A DNA stretch of 37,592 bases from Lachnospiraceae bacterium (lineage in GTDB: Bacteria; Bacillota; Clostridia; Lachnospirales; Lachnospiraceae). Positions 284 through 23,901 of this stretch are shown piece by piece. The notes under the pieces are model-generated. The model had not been told where the DNA came from and made no database searches. It was given only the letters and a program-made list of their open reading frames with translations. Position 1 is the stretch's first letter. Each line of letters starts with the position of its first letter. The position numbers and the translations under genes were made by a program. Location: the NCBI GenBank assembly GCA_016291405.1, contig JAEEXG010000022.1, positions 1 to 37,592 of the forward strand, written 5' to 3'.

Positions 284-1132
284 ATGTATGATGAATATTT
301 GAAAAAACTTGAAGAAGCTGGAAAAATCAGGAATCTTAAAGAGCGGTCCATTCACTGCTACCATAACTATGTTGCATATTTTCTGAATTATGTTGGCAAA
401 GATCCAAAAGATCTCACCTGTCAGGATGTTCGCGATTTTCTTCTGAAAAAGAAAGATGAAGGGGTAAAGGCTACCACCTTGAATCTGTACAACTCATCAA
501 TCCGCTTTTTTTATAAGTATGTCTTAGGTGTGCTTTGGGACGAGATATTAATACCACGTATGATAAAAGATCAGCCTTTACCAGTAGTTCTTACTTTAGA
601 TGAGGTTAACCTTTTTCTCGAGAATGTTGTGGACATAAAGTACCGGGCAATGTTTGCAACTATGTATTCTTCTGGTATGCGTGTGTCGGAAGTCATACAT
701 TTGCATTATGATGACATTTCCAGATCAAATATGCAGATCCATGTGCGGAATACAAAAAACCGCATGGATAGATATACTATTCTTTCAAAGAAAAATCTGG
801 ATATCCTCACCCAGTATTGGTTTGAGAGAAACCGTCCCACTGGCATACTGTTCCCCAACAGATTCACAGGAGAATATCTGACGGTAAGTACGCTGGAACA
901 GGTTATGCGCAGAGCTATTAAGAAATCAGGTATTACCTCTAAAGCAACACCGCACAGTCTTAGGCACAGCTTTGCGACGCATCTCTTGGAGCAAGGGGTG
1001 GATCAAAAATATATACAAGCTCTTCTCGGACACAGAGATCCAAAATCCACCGAAGTATATCTTCACAGAAGCAATAAGACTATTATGGGAATTCAGAGTC
1101 CTTTTGATAGAGAGGACCCTAAAAATGAATAA
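284..1132 (+). CDS. Tyrosine recombinase (XerC/XerD-like integrase)
   Basis: A 282-residue site-specific recombinase of the phage-integrase family. The N-terminal SAM-like core-binding domain spans about residues 1-90. The catalytic domain shows R133 (GMRVSE), H224-S-L-R227, H250 (LGH) and the nucleophile Y259 (EVYLH), so the active-site set looks complete. The ATG at 284 follows GGAGG with 8 nt spacing, inside a hairpin that may mask it. Its last 8 bases overlap the transposase start, implying coupled translation. The protein probably acts with the HUH transposase, for example in resolving or integrating the element; its exact role in IS91-like units is not established from sequence. Length is normal for the family. 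Confidence 0.9.
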   Translation: MYDEYLKKLEEAGKIRNLKERSIHCYHNYVAYFLNYVGKDPKDLTCQDVRDFLLKKKDEGVKATTLNLYNSSIRFFYKYVLGVLWDEILIPRMIKDQPLPVVLTLDEVNLFLENVVDIKYRAMFATMYSSGMRVSEVIHLHYDDISRSNMQIHVRNTKNRMDRYTILSKKNLDILTQYWFERNRPTGILFPNRFTGEYLTVSTLEQVMRRAIKKSGITSKATPHSLRHSFATHLLEQGVDQKYIQALLGHRDPKSTEVYLHRSNKTIMGIQSPFDREDPKNE

Positions 1133-2276
1133 GCCTACAGTACAGGATATATTTCTGAAGTTTTACCCTGATTACCTAGAAAAATACACACCATCTGTAG
1201 AACAGGCAAAAGTTGCTAATGCCATTATGAATTGTAAGACTTCACGTATGGGTGCTAATGTACAAGTATGTGAAGACTGTGGCTGTATTTCAATCCATTA
1301 TAATTCCTGCAGGAACAGGTGCTGCCCCATGTGTCAAGCTCTCCCGAAAGAAAAGTGGATGGATATGCGTAAGGAAGATGTCTTGGATGCCCCATATTTT
1401 CATCTTGTTTTTACCGTTCCTGCTGAATTGAATCCCATTATCTACAATAACCAAAAACTTCTTTATGATACGTTGTACCATGCTGCTTCAGCCACCATCA
1501 ACGATTTATCTGTACAGGATAAATACCTTGGTGCAAATGTTGGATATATCTGCATACTTCATACATGGGGATCTGAGCTGAACTATCATCCACACATACA
1601 CACGATACTCTTGGGAGGTGGACTGGATAAAAACAGGCATTGGAAAGATAAAGGTGATAAGTTCTTTATTCCGATACAGGTGATTTCAAAAGTCTTTCGC
1701 GGTAAGTACATGGAAGAACTAAAGAGTCTATGGGAAGCCGGAAAGCTTAAGTTTTTTGGTTCATCAGAAAGATATAAGAACAGATATGAATTTAAAGCGT
1801 TACTCGATACCTGCTATTCCAAAGAATGGATTCCACACTGCAAGAGAACCTTTAATGGTGCTCAATCTGTAATTAAATACCTGGGCAAGTACACTCATAG
1901 GATAGCTATAAGCAACCACAGAATAATCCTCATCAATGATGAAAGCGTTACATTTTCTGTTAAAGACTACCGTAATGCGGGTAAATGGAAGAATATCACT
2001 ATAAGCGGAGTTGAATTTATAAGACGCTTTCTCATGCATGTTCCGCCAAAGCGCTTTGTAAGAATACGGCATTTTGGGTTGCTTTGTAGTCGTAAAAAAA
2101 ACAGTAGCCTTACTCTATGCAGGAATCAGCTTGGTTGTAAGCGCTATATATCTGAGCTAAGAAACATGACATCAGCTCAGATACTGGAGCATTTATGGGG
2201 ATTCAAAGTCGAGGTATGTAAACATTGTGGTGGAAAAATCATAGATCACCATAGGCAGATGCCAATGCTTTGTTAA
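1125..2276 (+). CDS. IS91-family transposase (HUH, Y2)
   Basis: A 383-residue rolling-circle-type transposase. Near the N terminus a cysteine cluster (C49-x2-C52, C62, C66/C67, C70) matches the IS91 zinc-binding domain. The metal-binding HUH motif is HPHIH at about residues 155-159. The two catalytic tyrosines fit Y252 and Y256 in KYLGKYTHR, the Y-x3-Y spacing of IS91. The ATG at 1125 is chosen because an IS91-like N terminus (MNKPTVQDIF) begins there and overlaps the recombinase stop by 8 bp; an in-frame upstream start at 972 would bury the gene in its neighbour. All key residues are present, so the enzyme may be active. Confidence 0.9.
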   Translation: MNKPTVQDIFLKFYPDYLEKYTPSVEQAKVANAIMNCKTSRMGANVQVCEDCGCISIHYNSCRNRCCPMCQALPKEKWMDMRKEDVLDAPYFHLVFTVPAELNPIIYNNQKLLYDTLYHAASATINDLSVQDKYLGANVGYICILHTWGSELNYHPHIHTILLGGGLDKNRHWKDKGDKFFIPIQVISKVFRGKYMEELKSLWEAGKLKFFGSSERYKNRYEFKALLDTCYSKEWIPHCKRTFNGAQSVIKYLGKYTHRIAISNHRIILINDESVTFSVKDYRNAGKWKNITISGVEFIRRFLMHVPPKRFVRIRHFGLLCSRKKNSSLTLCRNQLGCKRYISELRNMTSAQILEHLWGFKVEVCKHCGGKIIDHHRQMPMLC

Positions 2277-8751: not shown

Positions 8752-9717
8752 TTATTTTTTGTAGTCGTAGAAACCTTTTCCTGTGTTGATACCTGTTTCG
8801 CCTTTATCAATCTTTTCTTTTAAAAGCTTACAGATTCTGTTTTCAAGGCTTCCTTCAACCTTTGATTCAGGCTTCATGATGTGAATGTTGTATGCTGTCT
8901 CAAGACCTACAATATCAAGGATTTCGAAAGGTCCCTTAGGAGCGCCTGTTGCAAGTCTCCATGTAAGGTCGATTGTTTGAGGATCTGATACTTCGTTTGC
9001 CCAAAGTGCCTGAGCTGCGCCTAAGAAAGGTACAAGCATTGAGTTAAGAATGTATCCGGGCTGCTCTTTATTAAGCCTTAAGGGCACCATGTTAATGTCA
9101 GCTGCAAAGGCAACTACCTTATCATAGATTGCCTTATCTGTTCCGGGATGTCCCATAACTTCGGCTGTATTGTTTTTCCAAATAGTGTTTGCAAAGTGAA
9201 GAGATAAATACTTTTCAGGTCTTCCTGTATATTCTGCAAATCTGCTTGGAAGCATTGTTGATGAGTTTGTAACAAGAATTGTCTTTTCAGGTAAAAGGTC
9301 TTTCATCTGCTTATAAACACCGATTTTTGCTTCGGGATCTTCAGACATTGATTCAATCACGATATCAGCGTCTGAAACAGCCTTTGCCATATCAAGCTCA
9401 ATCTTTATATTGTTTTTAAGGTTTTCTTTTCCGACTTTTACAAGTTCATCAATCTTTTCAGCGGTGATTCCGTCCCATGTCTTAATCATTCCTCTGGGAT
9501 AGAGCATCTTTCCGATGGGATTTGAAATAAGTGCTTTAGCAGCTTCCAAATCCTTAAGCATCATATCGGAATACATTTCAATCTTTGGAGTGGTACGTCC
9601 GATAGAGCTTTCGCTTCTGAGCCAAAATGTTACCTTGTGACCTGTGTATGCACACATAAGGCCGATCTGAGTGCCAAGGACACCGCCTCCGGCCACTACT
9701 ACGTTTTGTAATTCCAT
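8752..9717 (-). CDS. 3-hydroxyacyl-CoA dehydrogenase family protein
   Basis: A 321-residue NAD-dependent dehydrogenase with the two-domain structure of 3-hydroxybutyryl-CoA dehydrogenases. The Rossmann loop GGGVLGTQIG is at residues 10-19, and the acidic and serine-rich middle (ADIVIESMSED, TNSSTM) is typical. The catalytic-histidine strand reads LSLHFANTIWKNNTAEVMG, where most relatives have HFFNP, so the substrate may differ from hydroxybutyryl-CoA. The C-terminal helical domain ends in the conserved GKGFYDY. It is slightly longer than the usual 280-290 residues because of an insertion at about residues 30-85. It stands alone rather than in a butyrate operon. The start follows GGAGG. Confidence 0.85.
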   Translation of the reverse strand: MELQNVVVAGGGVLGTQIGLMCAYTGHKVTFWLRSESSIGRTTPKIEMYSDMMLKDLEAAKALISNPIGKMLYPRGMIKTWDGITAEKIDELVKVGKENLKNNIKIELDMAKAVSDADIVIESMSEDPEAKIGVYKQMKDLLPEKTILVTNSSTMLPSRFAEYTGRPEKYLSLHFANTIWKNNTAEVMGHPGTDKAIYDKVVAFAADINMVPLRLNKEQPGYILNSMLVPFLGAAQALWANEVSDPQTIDLTWRLATGAPKGPFEILDIVGLETAYNIHIMKPESKVEGSLENRICKLLKEKIDKGETGINTGKGFYDYKK

Positions 9718-9837
9718 AATAAAACCTCCAACTACATAAATTTTCCCATACAGCTATTTTTACATATTTAGAGGAAATAAACTATACTTTTTTTAGCTTC
9801 TTTTAGGAAATTTTTGTTAAAAGAAACCTTTCTTAGT

Positions 9838-11574
9838 TTAGCCTATCTTCCAGCTTACGGCTTTTCTTCTTCCTGTGATGAAGTTTTTGTATATTCCCTC
9901 CTGCTTCATAAGCTCGTCATGCTTACCCTTTTGAACGATTTTACCTTTATCTACCACAATAATCTGGTCTGCATGTCTTACAGTCTTAAGCCTGTGAGCA
10001 ATCATAATGATGGTCTTTTTCTTTGTAAGATTCTCAATAGCTTCAGTAAGTTCTTTTTCGTTTTCAGGGTCCACATTTGCCGTTGCTTCATCAAGAATGA
10101 TGATTGGCGCATCCTTCATAATGGCGCGGGCTATGGCGATTCTTTGACGTTCTCCTCCGGAAAGTGTGGCTCCGCCTTCACCGATAACCGTATCGTATCC
10201 GTTGGGAAGTGCTGATATAAAGTCATGGCAGGCTGCTTTCTTTGCAGCTTCAATCACTTCTTCCATGGAGGCATCGGGCTTACTGAATCGAATGTTGTTT
10301 GCAATCGTGTCTTCAAAAAGATAGACTCTTTGGAACACAAAGCTAAAGTTTTCCATTAAGGAATCAAAGCTATAGTCCTTAACGTTTCTTCCGCCCAAAG
10401 AAACACTTCCTTCATTTACATCCCAGAATCTTGCAATAAGGGAAGTGATGGTGGTCTTTCCTCCGCCTGAAGGGCCCACAATGGCGGTTGTTGTGTTTTC
10501 TTTTATGTCCAAAGAAACGTCATCGATTATCTTTCTGTTTTCATAAGCAAAGCTTACGTGTTCAAGATGTATGTCTCTGTTTTCAGGCTTGTAATCGACG
10601 CCGTCTATATCCATCTGCTCTATATCAAGTATCTCGTTTGCAAGGTCAACACCTTTACCTATTACCTTAAGTAAAGCCGTGAATGTTCCTGCGGTATCCA
10701 AGGCTTCGAATACCATAAAGGAGCAAAACAGCATTGTGATGGTGTATACGATATCCAAGGTGCCGTTAAAATAAAAGGAAAGAGAAGCACCCGCAATCAC
10801 AACGCCCATAAGCTTTACAAATAAGTTTTGCACGCCAACCGCGGGAATTGCCGAAAGTTCTGCGCTTATGTCGGCATTTTTCTTTCTGTCTATGGCCTTT
10901 TGAACTCTTGACTGATTTTGACCGATTATATTGTAATTTCTGATTTCTGCAATGCCTTGAATGTATTCAAGAATAATGCCCACCATGTTTTTGTCGGCTT
11001 CAATCTTTTCACCGGCAACCTTGGCCACGCATTTGTTGGTCCATCGATTAATCAAAACAAACAAGCCGATACCGATTACGGAAATGAGCCCGATTCTTAC
11101 GTCAAAAGTAAACATTAAAAGCGCCACAATAACCGTGGTAAGGCTTCCCTGAAGTACAAGCATTATGGCTCTTGTTGCTATATCTCCCACCTGTTCCATT
11201 GTGTTTGTGGTAACGGATGTGATGTGGCCTAAGCTTGTGTCGTTAAAATATCCCATGGGAAGGTATCTTAAGTGTTCACCGATTTCTATTCTCTTTAAAG
11301 CACAGGTATCGTATCCTGCTTCTGTTTGAAGCATGGATGAAAAACGGCTTATTGTCATTTTTCCGATTGTGCTAAGAAGCATAAGTCCCAAAACGGTAAG
11401 GATTGCTTTTGTATCTACGTTCTTTTCATATACGGCCTTTATTGCCACAAAAGCGGCAGGAATCTTTATGGCCGTAAACATTGCTTCAAGTACGCCTAAA
11501 AATACTGATTTATACAGTTTGTTTCTGTTCTTTTCACTGCAAAAATCAAAGAACTTTTTTATCATCTTAAACAT
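9838..11574 (-). CDS. ABC transporter, fused permease/ATPase (second subunit)
   Basis: A 578-residue half transporter: a type-I exporter-fold membrane domain (six predicted helices, about residues 15-320) followed by an ATPase domain. The ATPase shows Walker A GPSGGGKTT, signature LSGGERQR, Walker B IIILDEATA and the H-loop IAHRL, all canonical. It overlaps the upstream partner gene by 8 bp, and the two certainly form a heterodimer. The family includes multidrug and lipid exporters and the iron-siderophore importers YbtPQ and IrtAB, which share this fold, so direction of transport is not decided by sequence. Only a weak AAGAAA/TTTCTT dyad follows the stop. Confidence 0.88.
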   Translation of the reverse strand: MFKMIKKFFDFCSEKNRNKLYKSVFLGVLEAMFTAIKIPAAFVAIKAVYEKNVDTKAILTVLGLMLLSTIGKMTISRFSSMLQTEAGYDTCALKRIEIGEHLRYLPMGYFNDTSLGHITSVTTNTMEQVGDIATRAIMLVLQGSLTTVIVALLMFTFDVRIGLISVIGIGLFVLINRWTNKCVAKVAGEKIEADKNMVGIILEYIQGIAEIRNYNIIGQNQSRVQKAIDRKKNADISAELSAIPAVGVQNLFVKLMGVVIAGASLSFYFNGTLDIVYTITMLFCSFMVFEALDTAGTFTALLKVIGKGVDLANEILDIEQMDIDGVDYKPENRDIHLEHVSFAYENRKIIDDVSLDIKENTTTAIVGPSGGGKTTITSLIARFWDVNEGSVSLGGRNVKDYSFDSLMENFSFVFQRVYLFEDTIANNIRFSKPDASMEEVIEAAKKAACHDFISALPNGYDTVIGEGGATLSGGERQRIAIARAIMKDAPIIILDEATANVDPENEKELTEAIENLTKKKTIIMIAHRLKTVRHADQIIVVDKGKIVQKGKHDELMKQEGIYKNFITGRRKAVSWKIG

Positions 11575-13345
11575 TTGCGGCCTCCTTTAAAGAAACTGTT
11601 TTTGCTTCCTCATCTTCATCCTTTGCCATGCTGTGGGCTTCCCACATCTTTTTATAAAGTTCGCATGACTTAAGAAGCTCTTCCTGAGTGCCGCAAGCTT
11701 CAACGTTTCCGTCATTAATAACAAAAATCTTGTCTGCATCAACTATGGTTGATAATCTGTGGGCAATGACTATTAGGGTGCGACCCTTAATAAGCTTTGC
11801 TACGCTTTCCTGAACGATTGCCTCGTTTTCAGGGTCTGTATAAGCTGTAGCTTCATCAAGGATAACAACCGGTGCATCCTTAAGCATCGCTCTTGCAATA
11901 CAGATTCTTTGGCGTTCACCGCCCGATAAGTGGCCACCGGCTCCGCCTACTATGGTGTCATAGCCGTTTTCAAGGCCTAGGATAAATTCATGGCATCCTG
12001 TAGCTTTAGCCGCATTTATTACATCTTCATCCGTTGCGCCTTTCTTTCCAAGCCTTATGTTTTCTTTAACCGACATATCAAAAAGGAAATTATCCTGCGC
12101 TACATATGCTATTTGATTCATGTAGTAGTCAAGGGGAAGATTCTGAATGTTGATGCCTCCGAAGGTAATCATTCCCGAATCTACATCCCAAAGAGAATCG
12201 ATAAGTCTTGCAACGGTACTTTTACCAGATCCTGAAGGGCCAACGATTGCCACCACTTCACCCTGATTAATCTCCATATTTATGCCGTGAAGCACTTCGG
12301 TTTCTTTGTAGGTAAAGTGAACATCCTTTAAAGTGATGTCAGAGCCAACCGGAGCCTTTGTGATTTCTTTTGGCCTAACCATGTCTTTTCTTTCAAGAAT
12401 TTCCGTAGCTTCTCCAAAAATAGAGCCAACCTTCATAATGTCGTCCATGTATGTAAAGGCAACCACCAAAGGTGTAATAAGGCCTGCGGAAAGGATGATA
12501 CATGTGATAAAGTCACCTGCGGCCAAAGAACCGTTTTTAACTAAAAGAAGCCCTACGGGAAGCACTCCAAGGAAGGTCGCGGGGAGGAAAGCCATCATGC
12601 CCGACTGAGGCCAGATACATCTTCTCATCCAATTTATAAATACGTCAGCGCCCTCTCTTGCGGCTGTAACAAACTTTTCATAAGAGCTTCCTGTTTTACC
12701 GAAAGCCTTGATAACTTCGATACCGTTAATGTATTCAACCGCCGTATCGTTTAGCTTCTTTGTTTTTTCAACCGATAAAGCAAATCCGCCCTGGCTTCTT
12801 GCAAACATGATTACCATGAAAACAAGACCTATGATTGCTCCCACAAAGTTTGCAAGGCCCACTCTCCAATCGATTGAGATAATATAGATAAACATTGCAA
12901 TGGGAAGAAGGATGTTTGCTGTAAACTCAGGCACTATATGGGCCAACGTGGTTTCCATCGAATCCACTCTTTCAACAATTATGTTTTTGTAGCTTCCGCT
13001 GTTATCATCAAGCACCGAGCCCAAGGGAATCTTTGAAAGCTTTTCGCAAAGCTGAGTTCTTATTCCTCCAAGGACCGTAAAGGTAGCCACGTGAGAAAGG
13101 GATGTTGAAAATGAATGAAGTGTTGCTCTTATCACCCAAAACAATCCCATAAATAAAACTTCTTTTAAGTAAAAGCTAAAATCTTTGTTTCCAAGAAGCA
13201 ACTGCTCCACAATTTTAGCAATAATAACATATGGGATAAATGAAGCCGCAACGCCAAACATGGCAAGCACCACACTCCCCGCAAAGAAACTTTTCTTGCG
13301 TCCTGCAAATTCCAAAATCCAGGACAGCACACTCCTCTTCTTCAT
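11567..13345 (-). CDS. ABC transporter, fused permease/ATPase (first subunit)
   Basis: A 592-residue half transporter with an N-terminal membrane domain and a C-terminal ATPase: Walker A GPSGSGKST, signature LSGGERQR, Walker B VVILDEATA, H-loop IAHRL. Both nucleotide sites of the pair therefore look consensus, unlike many heterodimeric exporters where one is degenerate. ATG 13345 (MKKRSVLSW) is chosen because GGAG lies 7 nt before it; the upstream in-frame ATG at 13372 falls inside an operator and lacks a ribosome-binding site. The gene is driven by the promoter at 13454-13482 and has an approximately 100-nt leader with a hairpin and two operator-like palindromes, suggesting repression by a regulator not encoded in this window. 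Confidence 0.88.
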   Translation of the reverse strand: MKKRSVLSWILEFAGRKKSFFAGSVVLAMFGVAASFIPYVIIAKIVEQLLLGNKDFSFYLKEVLFMGLFWVIRATLHSFSTSLSHVATFTVLGGIRTQLCEKLSKIPLGSVLDDNSGSYKNIIVERVDSMETTLAHIVPEFTANILLPIAMFIYIISIDWRVGLANFVGAIIGLVFMVIMFARSQGGFALSVEKTKKLNDTAVEYINGIEVIKAFGKTGSSYEKFVTAAREGADVFINWMRRCIWPQSGMMAFLPATFLGVLPVGLLLVKNGSLAAGDFITCIILSAGLITPLVVAFTYMDDIMKVGSIFGEATEILERKDMVRPKEITKAPVGSDITLKDVHFTYKETEVLHGINMEINQGEVVAIVGPSGSGKSTVARLIDSLWDVDSGMITFGGINIQNLPLDYYMNQIAYVAQDNFLFDMSVKENIRLGKKGATDEDVINAAKATGCHEFILGLENGYDTIVGGAGGHLSGGERQRICIARAMLKDAPVVILDEATAYTDPENEAIVQESVAKLIKGRTLIVIAHRLSTIVDADKIFVINDGNVEACGTQEELLKSCELYKKMWEAHSMAKDEDEEAKTVSLKEAANV

Positions 13346-13364
13346 GTACATTCTCCTTTTTTGA

Positions 13365-13380
13365 GTTAGCATTTGCTAAC
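13365..13380. promoter_or_regulatory. Operator-like palindrome, proximal copy
   Basis: GTTAGCATTTGCTAAC is an inverted repeat with 7-bp arms (GTTAGCA/TGCTAAC), just upstream of the ribosome-binding site of the ABC pair. It shares the TTAG-N6-CTAA layout of DtxR/IdeR-type metal-repressor boxes and also resembles MarR/TetR operators. Confidence 0.65.
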
Positions 13381-13392
13381 CGTGTGATATTT

Positions 13393-13420
13393 TATTGCTC
13401 CGCCTTTTAGCGGAGCAATA
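13393..13420 (-). promoter_or_regulatory. Leader hairpin between the two operators
   Basis: A perfect 11-bp stem TATTGCTCCGC/GCGGAGCAATA with a 6-nt loop lies in the 5' leader of the ABC mRNA. No T-run follows on the minus strand, so it is not a simple terminator. It may stabilise the transcript or separate the two operators. Confidence 0.6.
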
Positions 13421-13432
13421 TATACCGTATGA

Positions 13433-13448
13433 GTTAGCATTACCTAAC
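13433..13448. promoter_or_regulatory. Operator-like palindrome over the transcription start
   Basis: GTTAGCATTACCTAAC matches the proximal copy at 13365 in its outer arms (GTTAG/CTAAC). It starts 5 bp downstream of the -10 box and so covers the predicted +1 (about 13447), the classic position for repression. Confidence 0.7.
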
Positions 13449-13453
13449 TATGG

Positions 13454-13482
13454 ATAGTAACACTTAAGCATTTTCCCGTCAA
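13454..13482 (-). promoter_or_regulatory. Promoter of the ABC transporter pair
   Basis: On the minus strand TTGACG (13482-13477) and TACTAT (13459-13454) are separated by exactly 17 bp. This is close to the sigma-A consensus. The -35 box lies directly beside the terminator of the small upstream unit. Confidence 0.8.
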
Positions 13483-13487
13483 GATAT

Positions 13488-13516
13488 AAAAAAAGAGCCG
13501 AAGATTTCTCTTCGGC
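13488..13516 (-). terminator. Intrinsic terminator of the small ORF unit
   Basis: On the minus strand GCCGAAGA-gaaa-TCTTCGGC is followed by TCTTTTTTT. It is a strong GNRA-capped hairpin plus T-run, 30 bp after the stop of the 17-codon ORF and immediately before the ABC promoter. Confidence 0.9.
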
Positions 13517-13546
13517 CTAATATATAAAGCGCTCACCGATTATGGG

Positions 13547-13600
13547 TTATGCGCTAATCGAGGTAGGGCATCCGATGGATGCAATTGAGGTAGTGTTCAT
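13547..13600 (-). CDS. 17-codon small ORF with strong ribosome-binding site
   Basis: The ORF encodes MNTTSIASIGCPTSISA. ATG 13600 lies 9 nt after AAAGGAGG; a second in-frame ATG at 13606 is only 3 nt from GGAGG and less likely. The peptide is hydroxyl-rich (four Ser, three Thr) with a single Cys in IGCPTS and no charged side chain. It has its own promoter (13629-13657) and terminator (13488-13516), giving an RNA of about 135 nt, so it is not simply a transcribed leader of the ABC genes. I do not recognise it. It could be a signalling or modified-peptide precursor, a ribosome-stalling ORF, or a reading frame inside a regulatory RNA. Proximity to a transporter makes a functional link plausible but unproven. 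Confidence 0.5.
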   Translation of the reverse strand: MNTTSIASIGCPTSISA

Positions 13601-13626
13601 AAGCATGTACCTCCTTTCCTCGATTA
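13555..13626 (-). promoter_or_regulatory. Mutually exclusive structures over the small ORF
   Basis: Several complementary segments compete. TAATCGAGG near the RNA 5' end pairs perfectly with CCTCGATTA at the ORF end (13618-13626 with 13555-13563). The Shine-Dalgarno segment GAGGTA (13613-13608) can pair with either of two TACCTC copies (13592-13587 and 13565-13560). Between these copies is a perfect GCATCC-atc-GGATGC hairpin (13568-13582). The layout would allow ribosome-binding-site masking, but folding was judged by eye. Confidence 0.5.
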
Positions 13627-13628
13627 AA

Positions 13629-13657
13629 ATTATCACACAATAAAAGCCTAAACGCAA
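13629..13657 (-). promoter_or_regulatory. Promoter of the small ORF unit
   Basis: On the minus strand TTGCGT (13657-13652) and GATAAT (13634-13629) are 17 bp apart, with an extended TGT just before the -10. The predicted start near 13622 leaves only about 20 nt before the start codon. Confidence 0.7.
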
Positions 13658-13687
13658 CTGTGTCGCCAAAAAACTATCCCTTGGCTC

Positions 13688-13706
13688 AAAGGACATATTA
13701 TCCTTT
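13688..13706. promoter_or_regulatory. Short dyad between divergent units
   Basis: AAAGGA-catatta-TCCTTT lies between the small-ORF promoter and the GGDEF gene. It could be an operator for either. A TATAAT at 13737-13742, without a clear -35, is the probable -10 of the GGDEF gene. A TTTGAAT/ATTCAAA hairpin at 13763-13779 sits just before that gene's ribosome-binding site. Confidence 0.3.
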
Positions 13707-13788
13707 AAATCTAATAATTCTTTAAAACCTTTGTTATATAATTATGAAAGTGTAGGGAATCATTTGAATTTGATTCAAAGGGGAAAAA

Positions 13789-14931
13789 ATGTTTAACGTA
13801 GTGATCACGGCCAATGCCATAACTTCACTATTCTTAATTGTTATAATCGTAGGTCTATATCACGTATCCGAATTGGCAGTCATAAACACCCGCTTTTTTA
13901 GATACTGTCTTTGGCTGTGCCTTTTGGGGCTTATTTGTGAAGCCTTATCTTTTTTACTTGAAGGGAAAGAAGAATATGCTTCTTATCTAACCTTAGTAAC
14001 GTTTCTTGGATACTTTTTCCTTCCTGTTTTAATCATCTTTTACAGTCTTTACACCTATCAGCTGTTAAAAGAAAAACGTGAAAGAAAATACTACAGATTT
14101 CCTATTTACATTCTGGTATTTTGTCTTATACAGATTGTGCTTGTGATTATCGGTACCCTTACAGGAAAGTTCTTCTTTGTAAAAGAGGGTATTCTTGTAT
14201 TTGGCCCTTGGAATAAGGTCATGATGCTTATACCTGCCCTTTGTTATCTCTTTTTGATTGTTCCTGTCCTCAAGGTTTATAAGCTATACGGAATATCAAG
14301 CATTCTTGTCTTACTAATGCTCTTTATTTTCCCGGGTTCATCCATTTTGATAGTCTCATTTTCAGACACACCCATAAGGCACTTTTACTCCGCCACCGCC
14401 CTTACCTTTGAAGTGGTTTATGTAATGCTTCAATCAAAGATAGTGGATGAGGCAAACATAAATGCAAGGATTTATAACGAGCTTTCCGTAAAAGACGTTT
14501 TGACGGGGCTTAGAAACAGAAGGGGCTATGAAAATTATATAAATGAGTTAAAAGAAACCGATTCAATCGGGGTGGTCTTTTGCGATGTAAATTCACTTAA
14601 AGCTGTAAATGACAACGAAGGCCATGCGGCTGGAGATCAAAGGATTAAAGATGTTGCCGATATTTTGACAAAGAATATTAAAGACGGGGCTGTTTGCAGG
14701 ATAAGCGGTGATGAATTTGTATGCGTGGTTAAGAATCAACGTGAAGAGTCGTTTATTGATATGATGACCATTCTTTCAAAGGCTTTGAGGGATCATGACA
14801 GGATAGCTTCTTTTGGATACGCTGTAGGAATCGGCAGCAACATACACGCTGTAGTCAACGAAGCCGAGCAAATGATGTACGCAGACAAAGCCCGCTACTA
14901 CAAAGAAACGGGAAAAGAAAGAAGACGATAA
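13789..14931 (+). CDS. Membrane-anchored GGDEF protein (diguanylate cyclase)
   Basis: A 380-residue protein that probably makes cyclic di-GMP from two GTP. Residues 1-215 form about seven membrane helices and act as an uncharacterised sensor module. The GGDEF domain occupies about 230-375 with the metal aspartate in FCDVNSLKAVND (D266) and the active-site loop ISGDEF (S306-F310). The first glycine is replaced by serine, which is tolerated in active cyclases. No RxxD inhibitory site precedes the loop, so product inhibition is probably absent. AAAGGGG is the ribosome-binding site. It is monocistronic and closed by the terminator at 14933-14965. Confidence 0.88.
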   Translation: MFNVVITANAITSLFLIVIIVGLYHVSELAVINTRFFRYCLWLCLLGLICEALSFLLEGKEEYASYLTLVTFLGYFFLPVLIIFYSLYTYQLLKEKRERKYYRFPIYILVFCLIQIVLVIIGTLTGKFFFVKEGILVFGPWNKVMMLIPALCYLFLIVPVLKVYKLYGISSILVLLMLFIFPGSSILIVSFSDTPIRHFYSATALTFEVVYVMLQSKIVDEANINARIYNELSVKDVLTGLRNRRGYENYINELKETDSIGVVFCDVNSLKAVNDNEGHAAGDQRIKDVADILTKNIKDGAVCRISGDEFVCVVKNQREESFIDMMTILSKALRDHDRIASFGYAVGIGSNIHAVVNEAEQMMYADKARYYKETGKERRR

Positions 14932-14932
14932 A

Positions 14933-14965
14933 AAAAGCCTGAAAGCAACTTACTTTCAGGCTTTT
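14933..14965. terminator. Bidirectional terminator
   Basis: A perfect 13-bp stem AAAAGCCTGAAAG/CTTTCAGGCTTTT with a 7-nt loop lies between the convergent GGDEF and PPOX genes. It can serve both strands. Confidence 0.92.
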
Positions 14966-14971
14966 AATAAT

Positions 14972-15364
14972 CTAGAATGTATAGGTTTCGGGACCGTGTG
15001 TAAAGGAACTGAATGATGCTGTAGCATTCTTAAAGTAGAATACTTCGGTGTTTGGATCATCTGCCGAATACATTTGCTTAAGATTAGGATAAGCATCAAG
15101 CATTGAAGCCTTTGCTTCCACTCTTTCATCTTCCACAAGTTCACCTGATAATCTTAACCAGTCTCCATCCTTAAAAGCACAGATTTCAACCTTGGGATTT
15201 TTGTGAATCTGTTTAGAAACATCCTTCATCTTTCCTGTCTGGATGTATAACTTTCCTTCGAAAATATGTATAGTGCCAAAGGGGCGAACTCTCGGCTGAT
15301 CTCCGTCAACTGTCGCAAGATAATATGTGCCTGCTTCTTTTAAAAATTTTTCAACTTTTTGCAT
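14972..15364 (-). CDS. Pyridoxamine 5'-phosphate oxidase-like (PPOX) family protein
   Basis: A 130-residue split-barrel flavin-type protein. The pattern YYLATVDGDQPRVRPFGTIHIFEGKLYIQTG and the following KQIHKNPKVEICAF and WLRLSGELVEDERVEAKASML are typical of Clostridia nitroreductase-associated PPOX proteins. Cofactor (FMN or F420) and substrate are not evident. It is convergent with the GGDEF gene and lies 27 bp downstream of the sensor kinase on the same strand, so it could be the last gene of that operon. Confidence 0.82.
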   Translation of the reverse strand: MQKVEKFLKEAGTYYLATVDGDQPRVRPFGTIHIFEGKLYIQTGKMKDVSKQIHKNPKVEICAFKDGDWLRLSGELVEDERVEAKASMLDAYPNLKQMYSADDPNTEVFYFKNATASFSSFTHGPETYTF

Positions 15365-15391
15365 TCCTTAGCCCTCCGTTTTCTTTTTATT

Positions 15392-16702
15392 TTACACTTT
15401 TCTAAGCAATAACTCCACAGAAAATCCGTTATCATTGTAAACTTCCATGCCGCCAAGCATCTTTGTCATGTAAAGGCGCACAAGATATAGGCCAAGGCCG
15501 TATCCGTTTTGCTCGGAAGAGTTTTTGCCTCTGTAATACTTTTCACAGATTAAAGGAAGGTCATCTTCCGATACCCCGGGACCAAAGTCTTTTATTACAA
15601 CACGCACAAAGCGGGCTTTTTTACCGTTTTCTAAGCTAATGGGGCCTGTTTCCGAGAAACTGATTTTTATGTCAGTGCCCGCATATTTATAAGAGTTTCC
15701 CACCACGTTATCAATGACCTGCTCCATCCTTAATTTATCAAGATAGATTAGGCAGGATGGAATGTGATTTTCAATTATCACCTTTCCGTAGTCTTCAAGA
15801 TTTTCAAAAAGCTTTTCCACAACCTGAGAGTTTTCTTCTTTAACGTTTACCTCTATGTGGTCAAGCTCATCCATTGTGGCATGCATCACGTTACTCATGA
15901 TAGAAGAAACCGTATCGGCCTTTTTTGAAACTACTTCTACCTTTTCAACAGCGTCCCAAAGATCTTCTCTCTCGCTACTATCTACTGAAAAATCACCCAT
16001 TCGCCGCTTTAGCTTTAAGTCCAAAACTTCGCAGGTAGCCTTTATTACCGCAAGGGGCGTCTTTATATCGTGGCTTAACTGGGCAATGATTTCTTTTCTT
16101 GCAATTTCAGCTTCCATTTCACGCTGCTTTGAAGCCTTAAGCTCTTCTCTCATAAGGTCAAAGGCTTCAACGAAGGTGCCAAAAAGATTGTGTTTATGAA
16201 TGGGAAGAGGTTCATCGAGATTGCCCTTTGCAAGCTTCTTTGAAAAGCCCACAAGCTCATTGATTGGTTTAATCAATGAGCTGTAAAGGTAATGGGCAAA
16301 CAAAGCTACGCCTATAAATATAAGGGTCCACATATAAATTGCCGCTCCAAAGAACTTGTCTTTGATGCTCTCAAAGTTTTCAAGCTCCGGAGTCCAAGCG
16401 ATTTTTCCAAGGTATTCACCATTCGGCGCAAAGTCTAAAACAAAGGCTGTGTTTGCATAAAGTTCTGTCAGTTCTTCGTCAACCAATTCTTTGGAAAAGA
16501 CAATACGACAGTCATAATTTCTCTCTATGGTTTCTTTCTTTACGCCATCTAAGTAGTCAGCCTCCGCTTTTCTGAGGAGGTCGTTATAGAAGACTACATC
16601 TCTTCCTTTATAGTTTAGGTGATTGTTTAGATACACAAATCCATAAAGCACAAGGCCCATGTAGAGCACAAATAAAATGAACGCTCTTATTATCTGCTTC
16701 AT
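15392..16702 (-). CDS. Sensor histidine kinase
   Basis: A 436-residue membrane sensor. A first helix (about residues 5-25), a short extracytoplasmic loop of about 90 residues, a second helix (about 117-138) and a HAMP linker precede the kinase core. The phospho-acceptor is H211 in LSHDIKTPLAVI. The ATP-binding lid shows the N box (VIDNVVGNSYKYA), G1 (DFGPGVSEDD) and G2 (GYGLGLYL). It starts 8 bp after the response regulator and forms a two-component pair with it. Because it lies downstream of an FtsX-type transporter operon, it probably senses a peptide antibiotic or envelope stress that the transporter handles. Confidence 0.92.
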   Translation of the reverse strand: MKQIIRAFILFVLYMGLVLYGFVYLNNHLNYKGRDVVFYNDLLRKAEADYLDGVKKETIERNYDCRIVFSKELVDEELTELYANTAFVLDFAPNGEYLGKIAWTPELENFESIKDKFFGAAIYMWTLIFIGVALFAHYLYSSLIKPINELVGFSKKLAKGNLDEPLPIHKHNLFGTFVEAFDLMREELKASKQREMEAEIARKEIIAQLSHDIKTPLAVIKATCEVLDLKLKRRMGDFSVDSSEREDLWDAVEKVEVVSKKADTVSSIMSNVMHATMDELDHIEVNVKEENSQVVEKLFENLEDYGKVIIENHIPSCLIYLDKLRMEQVIDNVVGNSYKYAGTDIKISFSETGPISLENGKKARFVRVVIKDFGPGVSEDDLPLICEKYYRGKNSSEQNGYGLGLYLVRLYMTKMLGGMEVYNDNGFSVELLLRKV

Positions 16703-16710
16703 AATCGCTC

Positions 16711-17415
16711 CTAAATCTCCAAATAATAGCCCGTGCCCCAGACGGTCTTAATAAGCTTTGGATTATTGGGGTCTTCTTCAAGCTTTTCCCGAAGCTTTCG
16801 AATGTGTACGTTTAAGGTGGAATCACTAAAAAATGCATCCCCCCACACTTCGTCAAACAGCACTTCTTTTTTTACAATGGTGTTTTTATGTCTGTAAAGG
16901 CACTCAAGAAGTGTATATTCCTTGGCCTTTAAGGGTATTTTCTTTCCGTTTAACATGACAGACAAGGTTGATTGGTCCAAAGAAAACTTTTCGGTTTCTT
17001 TTTCCGTATCTTTATTTCCGGGGGCTTTCGCCGAATCAGCGCTTGCCATAGAAAGCCTCTTTAACGTAACTTTAACTTTTGCAAGCAAAACCGACAAACT
17101 GTAAGGCTTTTTAACGTAATCGTCTCCGCCGATTGAAAGAGCAATAAGCACATCGTCGTCGCTTTGACGCGCACTTATAAAAAGGATGGGAATCTGGGTA
17201 TCTTCCCTAAGCTTTTTGCAAAGGTCAAAGCCCGATCCGTCCCCTAAATTAATATCCAAAAGTATGAGGTCAGCGGTGTTTCCCGCCTTAAAAAAAGCTT
17301 CGCAGGCATCGGCCGAGTCCACATACTCTGTGGATATATCAAACATTTTAAAATATTCTGCAGTCATCTTTGAAAGATCGACTTCGTCATCAACTATCAA
17401 ACAGTTGTAATGCAT
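16711..17415 (-). CDS. Response regulator, OmpR/PhoB family
   Basis: A 234-residue two-domain regulator. The receiver has the acidic pair DDE (9-11), phospho-acceptor D54 (LLDINLGDG) and the conserved lysine in VKKPYS (102-103). A C-terminal winged helix (about 135-234) includes the recognition segment DSTLNVHIRKLREKLEEDP. It pairs with the downstream kinase. The 11-bp-phased direct repeats at 22161-22179, upstream of the adaptor gene, are the best candidate for its binding site. A probable promoter lies at the end of the preceding permease gene, so the pair may be transcribed separately from the transporter. Confidence 0.92.
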   Translation of the reverse strand: MHYNCLIVDDEVDLSKMTAEYFKMFDISTEYVDSADACEAFFKAGNTADLILLDINLGDGSGFDLCKKLREDTQIPILFISARQSDDDVLIALSIGGDDYVKKPYSLSVLLAKVKVTLKRLSMASADSAKAPGNKDTEKETEKFSLDQSTLSVMLNGKKIPLKAKEYTLLECLYRHKNTIVKKEVLFDEVWGDAFFSDSTLNVHIRKLREKLEEDPNNPKLIKTVWGTGYYLEI

Positions 17416-17435
17416 TTAGCACCTCACTTATTTAA

Positions 17436-17448
17436 CTTACGTAGTAAG
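17436..17448. promoter_or_regulatory. Palindrome in the two-component promoter region
   Basis: CTTAC-GTA-GTAAG is a perfect 5-bp dyad with a 3-bp centre. It lies at the predicted transcription start of the response-regulator gene, where a repressor could bind. Confidence 0.35.
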
Positions 17449-17475
17449 TATAACACAGGGCTTATTCTTCGGTAA
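17447..17475 (-). promoter_or_regulatory. Possible promoter of the two-component pair
   Basis: On the minus strand TATACT (17452-17447) is 17 bp downstream of TTACCG (17475-17470). The -10 is good and the -35 weak, and the -35 lies within the last codons of the permease gene. Confidence 0.4.
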
Positions 17476-19849
17476 TCATCTTTACAGGCTCTAAGGTCTT
17501 AATTCGTTTTCCGATAAGGCCTGCAGTCAAAAGTGCAATTCCCAAAATCAAAAGGGTTGCCAAAATATATGAACTAAAGTTTACATAGAAAATCGACTTC
17601 TTAAATCCAAATACGGAGAAAAGAATACTCATAACTTTCTCTGAAGAGCCGGCTGCAACTATGATTCCAAGGACGCATCCAATTAAGACAGAGGGCATAT
17701 TTGAAAGCATTGTCTGGATTATTAACTGCTTTGAAGTATATCCCAAGGCTTTGCTTACGCCTAAGTCTCTCCAGCTTCTTGTAATCTGAGTCTTTATAAT
17801 CAAGGATTCAACAAAGGCCACAATAATTGCTGTAAGAAACGCAATCAAAACAGCCACAGCCTTTACCCCGCTCTTAACTACGCCTATTGTGCCTTCCGCA
17901 GCCTGCTTAAAATCTGTAACTTCCACATCCGGGTAGTCTTTTAAAAATACTTCCTTAAAGTCATCAATTGTATATCCGTCCTTTAAAAATACCATGTAGG
18001 AAAGCATATTTTGATGACCTGAAATCTTTTCAAAGCCTTCAAGGGACATGTATCCCATTTGGCCCATGTTGTTCATTACCTGACACAAACCGGTTACAAG
18101 ATAGGTTTCTTCGCTGTTTCCGTTCTTAGCACTAACCACATCTCCCACAGAAACCTTAAGCATTTTTGCCGCATTTGTGGCAAGCATTACTTCGTTATCG
18201 TGTATAGGCACTCTTCCTTCAATAGGAGAAAGGTTTTGGTTTTGTGTAATATCCGAAAATCCTCTGGTGTTAAAGTTTCTTTCTTTATTTACTTTCTTTG
18301 ATGTGTATAAAAATGAAGCGTTTGTTTCGCCGTAAAGCCTTTTAACCATCGGCATTGCGCTTACATACTGAGCCATTGCCTCATCGCAGTAAACCGAAAT
18401 GTCCGCATAGTCAAATCCCACCATCTTCATTAAGGCATCATTACTTGAAAAAGTATCCGCAGAGCCAAGGCTTAGGATTGTAGAAGCCATAAGCACCATC
18501 ATAATGAAAATGACACCGATATTACTTTTAAATCTTCCGAAGGTTTCTTTCAACGAAAGAGTTATGGCTACAGGGAAAGCACTCTTTTCAAAAGGGAAGA
18601 AATTCTTTTTAAAGTTATGAGCATTAACTCCACCCCTTAAGGCTTCCAAAACCGTAGTCTTTGAATAGTCGGAACCGATTAAAAATGTAAGGCCGGTAAC
18701 AATTAAGCAAAGTCCCAAAGCTACGCCCAAAGCCAAATCCATGCTTACCGCCTGATTCCATGAAAGTCCCATGGTTATAACAATGATGACTCCAAGCCTT
18801 CCGATAAGCAAAGCTCCTATCAATACGCCTACGGCACTTGCAACCAAGGCTACGGAAACAAGCTGCACCACCAATATGGCAATTAGTTCGTTTACCGTAT
18901 ATCCCGCCGCTTCCATGATTGCAGTGTTTTTCATGTTGGTGATGATAAAGTTTTTAACACTGAAATGAATAACCACCATCGCTATAATAAACATGATTAC
19001 AGCAAAGGCACAGATAATACCAAGAAACATATAGGGTAAAATCATGGCGCTTCCACGTAACATATCGTATGGCACGTCAACCATGATGCCACCCGTAGCA
19101 CCGGGATGATCGATTCTGTAGGTATCAAGCCAGGTGTTGTATTCAGAGGTTATTGAATCCATAATTCCCTGTATTTCATAGTTACGCCTGATGGCTTCTT
19201 TGGTAAGCTTTGCCTTAAACACTTTAACCGTAGCATATCCCGATGAATTGTTTTCAAAATCTATATCGTTATAAACAGAATCAGAAACGTAGCAAAGGGT
19301 TATTCCTAAGTTAAGGGGTGAACAATAAATCGAATCTTCGTTGTAGCCTGCAACCTTTAAGTCGTATACATTATCGTTAATCTTGATTCTGATTGTTTCT
19401 CCGATTTTATAGCTTGTGCTCATGCTTACCGGGAGCACAATGTCTTTTCCCCGAAGTCCCTTTGTATCTAAGCTTGGCTTTTCAACCTTAATATCCTGAT
19501 CGTAAGAAACAAACTGAAACGTGCTTTCCGTTAACTGCTTATCCTTTGTGTGTCCGTATTTTACGGATAAGCCCAAAGAATCCGTTGTTTCGATTTCGCT
19601 TATATAATTACTTCCTTTTAAAAGCTCTGTCATCTTCGCTTCGGCTTCTTCTCCCGAATAAAGCATGTAAAGAACTTCCGGTCCGTTTGTTTTTTCATGG
19701 ACGGAGTCAATTACATTGGGAATCCCCGAAATAAAGGACATACTTATAAAGATAAGCATGGCTGATAGCAAAATCATCACAAAGAAAGTCTTCATATCGC
19801 TTTTTTGTTTCTTCATGTTGTTTTTTGCGATAAAAAAGAATCTGTACAT
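17462..19849 (-). CDS. ABC transporter permease, FtsX/MacB type
   Basis: A 795-residue membrane protein with two FtsX repeats. One helix near residues 20-42 is followed by a large extracytoplasmic domain (about 45-265) and three helices. A second unit starts near residue 420 with another helix, an extracytoplasmic domain and three terminal helices. This is the design of BceB/MacB-like mechanotransmission permeases, which expel or disarm peptide antibiotics or move lipoproteins. It follows the ATPase gene by one base and the adaptor gene precedes both, giving an adaptor-ATPase-permease order like MacAB. Confidence 0.88.
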   Translation of the reverse strand: MYRFFFIAKNNMKKQKSDMKTFFVMILLSAMLIFISMSFISGIPNVIDSVHEKTNGPEVLYMLYSGEEAEAKMTELLKGSNYISEIETTDSLGLSVKYGHTKDKQLTESTFQFVSYDQDIKVEKPSLDTKGLRGKDIVLPVSMSTSYKIGETIRIKINDNVYDLKVAGYNEDSIYCSPLNLGITLCYVSDSVYNDIDFENNSSGYATVKVFKAKLTKEAIRRNYEIQGIMDSITSEYNTWLDTYRIDHPGATGGIMVDVPYDMLRGSAMILPYMFLGIICAFAVIMFIIAMVVIHFSVKNFIITNMKNTAIMEAAGYTVNELIAILVVQLVSVALVASAVGVLIGALLIGRLGVIIVITMGLSWNQAVSMDLALGVALGLCLIVTGLTFLIGSDYSKTTVLEALRGGVNAHNFKKNFFPFEKSAFPVAITLSLKETFGRFKSNIGVIFIMMVLMASTILSLGSADTFSSNDALMKMVGFDYADISVYCDEAMAQYVSAMPMVKRLYGETNASFLYTSKKVNKERNFNTRGFSDITQNQNLSPIEGRVPIHDNEVMLATNAAKMLKVSVGDVVSAKNGNSEETYLVTGLCQVMNNMGQMGYMSLEGFEKISGHQNMLSYMVFLKDGYTIDDFKEVFLKDYPDVEVTDFKQAAEGTIGVVKSGVKAVAVLIAFLTAIIVAFVESLIIKTQITRSWRDLGVSKALGYTSKQLIIQTMLSNMPSVLIGCVLGIIVAAGSSEKVMSILFSVFGFKKSIFYVNFSSYILATLLILGIALLTAGLIGKRIKTLEPVKMITEE

Positions 19850-22914: not shown

Positions 22915-23901
22915 ATGAATAATAGAGGCGAAGTTATTATATATCAAACCGAAGATGGATTGAGCAAATTCGAAGTTAACCTTAAAAACGAGACGGTGTG
23001 GTTGTCTTTAGATCAAATGGCAGAACTGTTCCAAAGAGATAAGTCGACCATCTCAAGGCATATAAAAAACGTCTTTGAAGAAGGTGAATTGATTAGAGAT
23101 TCAGTTGTTGCAAATTTTGCAACAACTGCCACCGATGGAAAAACATATTATGTCGATTATTTCAACCTCGATGTAATCATTTCTGTGGGATATAGGGTTA
23201 AATCACAGCGAGGTACGCAATTTCGTATATGGGCTAATTCTGTCTTGAGGGAATATATCATCAAAGGTTTCGCTATGGATGATGAACGTCTAAAGGGTAA
23301 TGGCGGAGGAAATTACTGGAAAGAACTATTAGATAGAATTAGAGATATACGCTCGTCTGAAAAAGTTCTTTACAGACAGGTACTGGATTTGTATGCAACC
23401 AGTGTAGATTACAATCCTAAGAGCGATGAGTCAATCCAATTCTTTAAAATTGTCCAAAATAAACTTCATTATGCCGCCCATGGTCACACTGCGGCAGAGG
23501 TTATTTATGAAAGAGCAGATGCAGAGAAACCTTTTATGGGTCTAACTTCATTCACAGGGGAATTGCCGTCGCTTAAAGATATAAGTGTAGCTAAGAACTA
23601 TCTTACGGCAGATGAACTAAGAATTCTTAATAATCTTGTTTCCGGTTATTTTGATTTAGCTGAAATTAATGCTATTGAACATAAACCCATGTATATGAGT
23701 GACTATGTTGAGCAACTTGATTCGGTTCTTTCATCCGGAAATAGAAAATTGCTTGATGGGCCAGGTAAAGTAAGTCACGCTAAAGCAATCGAAAAGGCCA
23801 CGGATGAATATCGAAAATATCAAAAGATTACTCTTTCACCTGTGGAAGAAGAATACCTTAGAAGCATAAAGAGCATAGCAAAAACTGTAAAAAAACATTG
23901 A
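22915..23901 (+). CDS. RhuM family protein
   Basis: A 328-residue protein of the Virulence_RhuM family. Hallmarks are IYQTEDG at the N terminus, TVWLSLDQMAELFQRDKSTISRHIKNVF (a DNA-binding-like segment at about 30-57) and DVIISVGYRVKSQRGTQFRIWANSVLREYI (about 90-120). The C-terminal half contains AAHGHTAAEVIYERADAEKPFMGLTSF, also family-typical. The molecular function is unsettled; genes of this type often lie in variable islands with restriction or other defence genes. GGAGG is 14 nt from the ATG, unusually far, and no closer start was found. A terminator follows directly. Confidence 0.85.
   Translation: MNNRGEVIIYQTEDGLSKFEVNLKNETVWLSLDQMAELFQRDKSTISRHIKNVFEEGELIRDSVVANFATTATDGKTYYVDYFNLDVIISVGYRVKSQRGTQFRIWANSVLREYIIKGFAMDDERLKGNGGGNYWKELLDRIRDIRSSEKVLYRQVLDLYATSVDYNPKSDESIQFFKIVQNKLHYAAHGHTAAEVIYERADAEKPFMGLTSFTGELPSLKDISVAKNYLTADELRILNNLVSGYFDLAEINAIEHKPMYMSDYVEQLDSVLSSGNRKLLDGPGKVSHAKAIEKATDEYRKYQKITLSPVEEEYLRSIKSIAKTVKKH

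Follow-up and report, generated by a model that had tools for sequence, protein, structure and literature searches.

The minus strand of positions 13488-13657 in the window, by which we mean the whole 37,592-nucleotide stretch of DNA that was analysed, from a member of the Lachnospiraceae, a bacterial family common in guts, appears to encode a structured small RNA, accessory in nature and about 135 nt long. We propose, with moderate confidence, that its mini-ORF matters by being translated and not by its product, so that no peptide factor would be made. A first-pass annotation of the same DNA was partly borne out: the unit and its candidacy as a small RNA stood, while a peptide precursor and a link to the adjacent ABC transporter pair did not.

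Parts of the unit

All the parts that had been ascribed to a self-contained tiny transcription unit, an extended -10 promoter, a strong Shine-Dalgarno (SD) sequence, a 17-codon ORF and a terminator, are present at 13488-13657 (minus strand, as are the coordinates in this section), at the places given by the annotation. The promoter (13629-13657) consists of the -35 element TTGCGT (13657-13652), a 17-nt spacer and the extended -10 element TGT-GATAAT (13637-13629), with the hexamer GATAAT at 13634-13629 preceded by TGT. When the best-scoring promoter pair was taken in each copy of the unit, TG occupied the extended -10 position in 15 of the 19 copies that keep their 5' end, in a run that gave TG a scoring bonus and left out G862. 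Between the extended -10 and the start codon sits the stretch AAAGGAGG, and the transcript is expected to begin near the 5' strand of helix P1 (AATCGAGG, 13618-13625).

The SD stretch AAAGGAGGTA follows (13608-13617); it matches the complement of the anti-SD sequence over 10 nt (GAAAGGAGGT) and contains the 5' strand of helix P2 (GAGGTA, 13613-13608). The mini-ORF (13547-13600) runs from ATG at 13600-13598, in the P2 loop, to TAA at 13549-13547, and its 17 codons read MNTTSIASIGCPTSISA. Fold and covariation place the 3' strand of P2 (TACCTC) at 13587-13592 and that of P1 (CCTCGATT) at 13556-13563, on either side of the sequence-variable P3 hairpin (GCATCC-ATC-GGATGC, 13568-13582). Behind them come the P4 hairpin (GCGC..GCGC, 13529-13554), an AU-rich linker (TTTATATATTAG, 13517-13528), which reads (A/T)TTACATATAT in most relatives in the alignments, and an intrinsic terminator, GCCGAAGA-GAAA-TCTTCGGC plus T7 (13488-13516; arms 13516-13509 and 13504-13497, T-run 13494-13488), whose sequence is not kept between loci.

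Fold of the transcript

The 139-nt transcript folded at -48.5 kcal/mol (z = -5.67), and none of 200 shuffled sequences was equally stable. In a scan of minimum free energies over both strands, 6 of 1874 windows of the same length folded as well, one of which overlaps the unit itself. The predicted fold is a three-way junction of P1 (AAUCGAGG/CCUCGAUU), P2 (GAGGUA/UACCUC) and P3 (GCAUCC/GGAUGC), succeeded by the P4 hairpin (GCGC/GCGC), the AU-rich linker and the terminator. The SD is predicted to lie within the P2 stem and the AUG in its loop, with the mini-ORF largely inside the folded domain; this junction was absent from the first-pass annotation. Other species, too, have the unit with this structure. 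When relatives were folded singly, z was below -3 in 12 of 14, the others being L057 (-2.26) and the damaged L062 (-0.83).

Like the families of Rfam 15, the unit is a compact intergenic structured RNA, yet it matches none of them: neither the window's own unit nor those of L004, L005, L006, L008 and L009 gave a match above the gathering score, and the best loose match overlapping the unit was STnc240, at 19.6 bits against a cutoff of 55. Among the papers listed by a search of mainly open-access literature, no description of such an RNA was met.

Distribution of the unit

In total we found 24 copies, 23 in sampled Lachnospiraceae genomes and one in a viral contig (L091, 112.5 bits). Both halves are present in 19, and five are fragments. 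The 19-copy set keeps the damaged G447 and G475; G443 (5' half only), two damaged G323 copies and two G861 3' halves were left out before ORFs were counted. G323 and G861 have two copies each, and every other positive genome has one.

A DNA search of 18 genomes of the genus found the unit in eight, the window's own genome included; a match in G007 and a second one in G000 comprised the terminator only. A first covariance model, built from the 8 genus copies, detected it in 8 of 397 sampled family genomes, again including its own, and in 1 of 31, 4 of 7 and 2 of 35 genomes of the groups g117, g42 and g5. With a second model, it was recovered in 8 of the 18 genus genomes (one copy each), in 7 of 397 when the family was searched again (each already matched in the first run), in 3 of 10 genomes of g81, one of which has 3' halves only, and in 1 of 391 genomes of the class, which was its own. 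Copy numbers from searches of more than 40 genomes are lower bounds, because the filters there were stricter and only a few candidates were scored in each genome. The distribution is patchy (8 of 397 family genomes), which is odd for a housekeeping regulator and counts against the explanation we favour.

A phage or plasmid element was considered and rejected: blastn searches of phages and plasmids with the unit as query gave no match, and pattern scans of IMG/VR gave L091 as the only accepted copy. Two other pattern matches there, L092 and L093, had no model match and were taken as chance, as were the weak model matches L096, L097, L098, L100 and L101.

Covariation of the helices

The copies form a structured RNA family with compensatory changes beyond chance. 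In the alignment of 19 copies, which was fitted to the model, 92.7% of the cells at 26 pairs were paired, and 69 two-sided changes stood against 19.0 in shuffles, a number reached by none of 500. The covariation score was 0.391 against 0.137, slid controls stayed at or below 0.084, and on every measure 0 of 500 shuffles did as well. A plain MAFFT alignment of 13 copies had 90.7% of its cells paired and 36 two-sided changes against 12.5 (0 of 500); two weaker measures gave 11 pairs with a two-sided change against 7.1 (2 of 500) and 24 further pair types against 21.0 (43 of 500).

Among the 19 copies, two-sided changes occurred at 6 of 6 pairs in P3, 5 of 8 in P4, 2 of 6 in P1 and 1 of 6 in P2. 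Covariation supports P1, P3 and P4. P2 hardly varies, which would be expected of a stem whose SD is itself required. G000 and G012 show a single difference within the unit, compared with 14 in the 55 nt upstream of it and with 29 of 263 fourfold sites in the aligned ABC gene. These covarying folds, along with the unit's own promoter and terminator, support the small-RNA candidate among the options that the annotation had listed.

The mini-ORF keeps its translation signals

The gap between SD and AUG is 8-9 nt in 19 of 19 copies. In the P2 loop, UAUG is the sole invariant run, with one further single position invariant. An in-frame stop lies 36-66 nt after the AUG in 19 of 19 copies, and at 36-51 nt in 17 of them, whereas the first stop of the two other frames, read from the sixth codon, falls at 36-51 nt in 1 and 5 of 19, counts that are not independent because the copies are related. 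The mini-ORF thus ranges from 12 to 22 codons, with its stop at the foot of P1 or in P4, and the stop position is kept by different stop codons in different registers; the 19 copies have the P1'-P4 stretch, where the stops lie, in common. Using the general anti-SD sequence (no 16S end was found in this assembly), we counted matches of 10 nt in 13 of 19 copies and of at least 8 nt in 18. The corresponding figures for comparison genes, taken from genomes of the genus with a minimum ORF length of 150 aa, were 1 and 19 of 167, with the best start picked for each gene, which favours the genes.

The peptide behaves differently. Cys-containing 17-mers like that of the window recur in G012, G003 (MNTTSFAPNRCPTSISA), G133 (MKNTSIAPIRCLTSTSA) and two G323 fragments. 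Other copies depart from the window's frame, either within P3 or behind it, and their last residues are VPYLD, APNLE, TDN, GVRT or GAFLN; the P2 stem accounts for the peptide start M-x-x-T-S that most copies have in common. The sum over four same-frame pairs gave a pN of 0.12 and a pS of 0.10. Within the frame class of the window, pN was about half of pS on few changes, with 0.10 and 0.23 for G000-G003, and with 0.16 and 0.31, likewise on few changes, for G000-G133, a comparison kept out of the sum because it shares G000. By this measure the encoded peptide seems to have no clear conservation, and a sign of selection on it was seen neither in the sum nor across frames. The first-pass annotation had proposed to look at codon substitution patterns; in these, the summed pN is not below pS, and pN is the lower of the two in the window's own frame class.

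The annotation had also listed a pheromone or modified-peptide precursor, and we considered such a product with the adjacent ABC pair as its possible exporter. A strong SD, a start and a stop, the recurring Cys-containing 17-mers and the lower pN in the window's frame class would agree with such a product, but the different frames, the unrelated end residues, the summed pN and the lack of a link with the ABC pair make it highly improbable. The combination of a conserved core with a dedicated export or modification gene, which would mark a peptide pheromone or RiPP, was not found.

Conservation of structure without conservation of the reading frame, which the annotation had named as telling against its own reading, is essentially what the copies display; SD, AUG, spacing and stop position are nonetheless kept. 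Lying within conserved RNA sequence, AUG and SD could owe their conservation to a role as RNA. A trans-acting small RNA of purely non-coding nature, whose SD-like sequence and AUG would serve as RNA, for example by binding 16S rRNA or a protein, and whose ORF would be incidental, agrees with the covarying helices, with an SD wholly or partly paired in the folds made and with a peptide under no clear constraint. We consider it possible though rather unlikely, given an invariant UAUG in an otherwise variable loop, the fixed SD-AUG spacing and a stop that is confined in frame and not in the other frames. That translation signals and stop position are kept while the peptide is not suggests that the ORF is not meaningless.

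The terminator and attenuation

Most copies appear, by their sequence, to have a promoter and a terminator of their own and so not to depend on the gene next to them. A stand-alone RNA of uniform kind is contradicted by the weak terminators of G003, G373, G446 and G447, in which no run of four T follows the hairpin, and G475, in which neither P4 nor a terminator was found.

We also considered a leader attenuator, in which translation of the mini-ORF or stalling on it would set read-through into the downstream gene. The unit does combine a short ORF, hairpins and a terminator, the gene downstream is often co-directional, and in G373 and G446 a gene stands close behind a terminator hairpin that lacks a U-run. 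When 5' parts of the RNA were removed stepwise, however, the pairing probability of the terminator stem stayed at or above 0.79 in 17 of 19 copies, and attenuation is disfavoured for this reason: an alternative structure that would remove the terminator was not found in these 17. The two others were G475, which has no terminator-like hairpin, and the viral copy, which was measured on the wrong hairpin. In an earlier, cruder run, the viral copy stayed at 0.95 throughout, and values fell in G000, G003, G015 and G097, for which pairs outside the stem had been counted in. Moreover, the downstream gene converges on the unit at L067, L068, L070 and L091, and the ABC genes of the window have a promoter-like site of their own, a TTGACG-17-TACTAT pair that starts at 13482. 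Attenuation is therefore improbable.

Neighbouring genes

A connection between the unit and the substrate of the ABC transporter had been suggested, together with a search for the ORF upstream of homologous ABC pairs. Among 39 relatives of the ABC protein, 36 of which have at least 600 nt upstream, only one has the unit. This is L030, a contig of the near relative G012, in which ORFs of 235 and 854 aa separate the unit from the ABC pair. Neighbours elsewhere are mostly unrelated as well, and the link was rejected. Both MAGs and isolates supplied the relatives of the ABC protein; they belong to Lachnospiraceae, other Clostridia and Treponema, and many have the label rumen or omasum. Neighbourhoods are in common between G000 and G012, between G009 and G017, and among G373, G446 and G447, where XRE-like and methyltransferase-like ORFs (by eye) recur beside the unit.

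Two 16-bp near-palindromes, GTTAGGTAATGCTAAC and GTTAGCAAATGCTAAC, at 13448-13433 and 13380-13365 on the minus strand, flank a GC-rich hairpin before the ABC pair, and in G012 (L003) a stretch like them, GTTAGCGAGAGCTAAC, stands before the next ORF. They look like operators of one regulator, perhaps a DtxR-like one. The ABC gene probably starts at ATG 13345 and not at 13372. Elsewhere in the window, 22915-23901 on the plus strand encodes a RhuM-family protein (Pfam PF13310).

At other loci, a SAM riboswitch (RF00162, 49.8 bits; L005, 843-928, plus strand) is situated upstream of the G015 copy, and in L075 an 880-aa EF-G-like ORF, by eye like ribosome-protection proteins, is found about 1.1 to 3.7 kb downstream of the unit. 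In the viral contig L091, the gene upstream of the unit (603-1151, minus strand) encodes an HTH_38 protein with an AbrB-like C-terminus by eye; gene and unit are both oriented against an adjoining gene that by eye is DNA-polymerase-like.

3' modules at the ends of other genes

In some genomes, the 3' part of the unit occurs on its own at the end of another gene. In G066 (L076, reverse complement, 10954-11000), a 93-aa ORF ends in a stop codon at which a 3' module without a 5' part starts, and in G351 (L077, 6730-6767), a 310-aa ORF has such a module, again lacking the 5' half, that starts one base before its stop codon. G861 has two direct 85-bp copies of the 3' half (L095, 807-891 and 1530-1614), 96% identical and 723 bp apart; a frame that is dprA-like by eye enters the first copy and stops inside it. 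The insert between these copies has a 53-bp tandem repeat, and its flanks are, by eye, the dprA-like gene and a serine-recombinase-like remnant.

These modules raise a reading that we consider improbable, in which modules are exchanged much as at an integron leader: promoter, SD and mini-ORF would be joined to a 3' module with stop and terminator, and genes would be swapped in front of the latter. Besides the modules at ORF stops in G066 and G351 and the stop supplied to the dprA-like frame in G861, it would fit a 1.86-kb extra segment behind the unit in G009 relative to G017, flanked by a 32-bp copy of the terminator stretch. The relaxase (Pfam) adjoining the unit in G133, the integrase-like remnant (by eye) adjoining a damaged copy in G323, the recombinase-like remnant of G861 and a 42-nt copy of the promoter (88%) 10 kb away in G066 point the same way. 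Against it, no conserved recombinase was seen, most examined loci are without an extra 3' module, and, besides the unit, a single 3'-module copy was found in 160 kb of G351 and a single one in 120 kb of G066.

The promoter copy of G066 follows a palindrome at 15434 in L113. This is one of ten 79-nt palindromes (GGGACGGGGTTAG..CTAACCCCGTCCC) that stand about 0.4-2 kb apart between single genes of that contig (reverse complement, 9066-19302). We rejected them as cassettes and read them, by eye, as a REP-like array with a RAYT-like ORF. An integron attC-like core in the 3' module, sought by eye only, was not consistent and was likewise dropped. In L066, a repeated TTTTTTCTTTGTRCCGTA-like stretch lies between single genes in mixed orientation, at 186, 1454, 2722, 3803 and 4435.

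In PMC8876359, the integron attI1 frames ORF-11, ORF-17 and ORF-18 are described as 11-18 codons long, with an SD 8 bp before the ATG, and as part of every transcript that the array promoter drives; changing the amino acids had a slight effect only, and the stop codon may come from the inserted cassette. That last feature resembles the 3' modules at ORF stops in G066, G351 and G861 (PMC8876359). By analogy, though we think it improbable, the unit may be a gene-exchange platform outside integrons, in which a leader of promoter, exceptionally strong SD and mini-ORF, folded into a three-way junction, is joined at the stop to a 3' module of stop, P4, AU linker and terminator; genes could be exchanged before this module, and the mini-ORF would recruit ribosomes and keep the site occupied, like ORF-11 of attI1. 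Unlike in attI1, the ORF here is embedded in a covarying three-way junction with a terminator at its end; no integrase, attI or attC was identified, the remnants seen by eye being those of other recombinases, and no recombinase is tied to the 3' modules.

A proposed role for translation

Returning to the structured small RNA with a mini-ORF that is translated for its own sake, we suggest the following course of events. A ribosome would load during transcription, before P2 and P1 close. While translating, it would open P2, P3 and the 3' strand of P1, and its release would come at the P1 foot or where P4 starts; the linker and terminator, and P4 after release, would stay folded. The RNA could thus adopt two states, one open and ribosome-bound, the other closed with its SD hidden. 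Translation would set the state and with it the life span or activity of the RNA, and the balance of states may report translation. P2 hides the SD, which would lower translation and counts against this proposal.

Action in trans on targets is favoured, since most loci have neighbours of their own and converging genes stand opposite some copies. An AU-rich stretch before a U-tailed terminator has the look of the protein-binding 3' end of trans-acting small RNAs, and the likeness of the linker to such an end also favours action in trans.

Comparison with known systems

Small RNAs with ORFs are usually judged on peptide conservation; here the act of translation, together with an RNA fold around it, appears to be kept while the peptide drifts across frames. 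To our knowledge, it is unusual for translation signals within a covarying domain to be conserved in a way that depends little on the peptide. If translation proves to be the switch, the unit would offer a simple natural system for ribosome-gated RNA, in an RNA family that is unmatched in Rfam 15, has one viral copy and is linked to gene ends.

Leader attenuators of antibiotic-resistance genes, of the ermBL type, have hairpins. Like the unit, they hold a short ORF in a leader (PMC9178857). The unit differs from this type in having no alternative to the terminator stem, no common downstream gene among those seen, and converging genes behind some copies. Dual-function small RNAs, of which SgrS/SgrT, RNAIII/delta-haemolysin and SR1/SR1P are examples named in PMC5521070, resemble the unit in being short independent RNAs with a short ORF. 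In those RNAs the encoded protein is functional, whereas in the unit the signals for translation are kept and the peptide is not clearly so.
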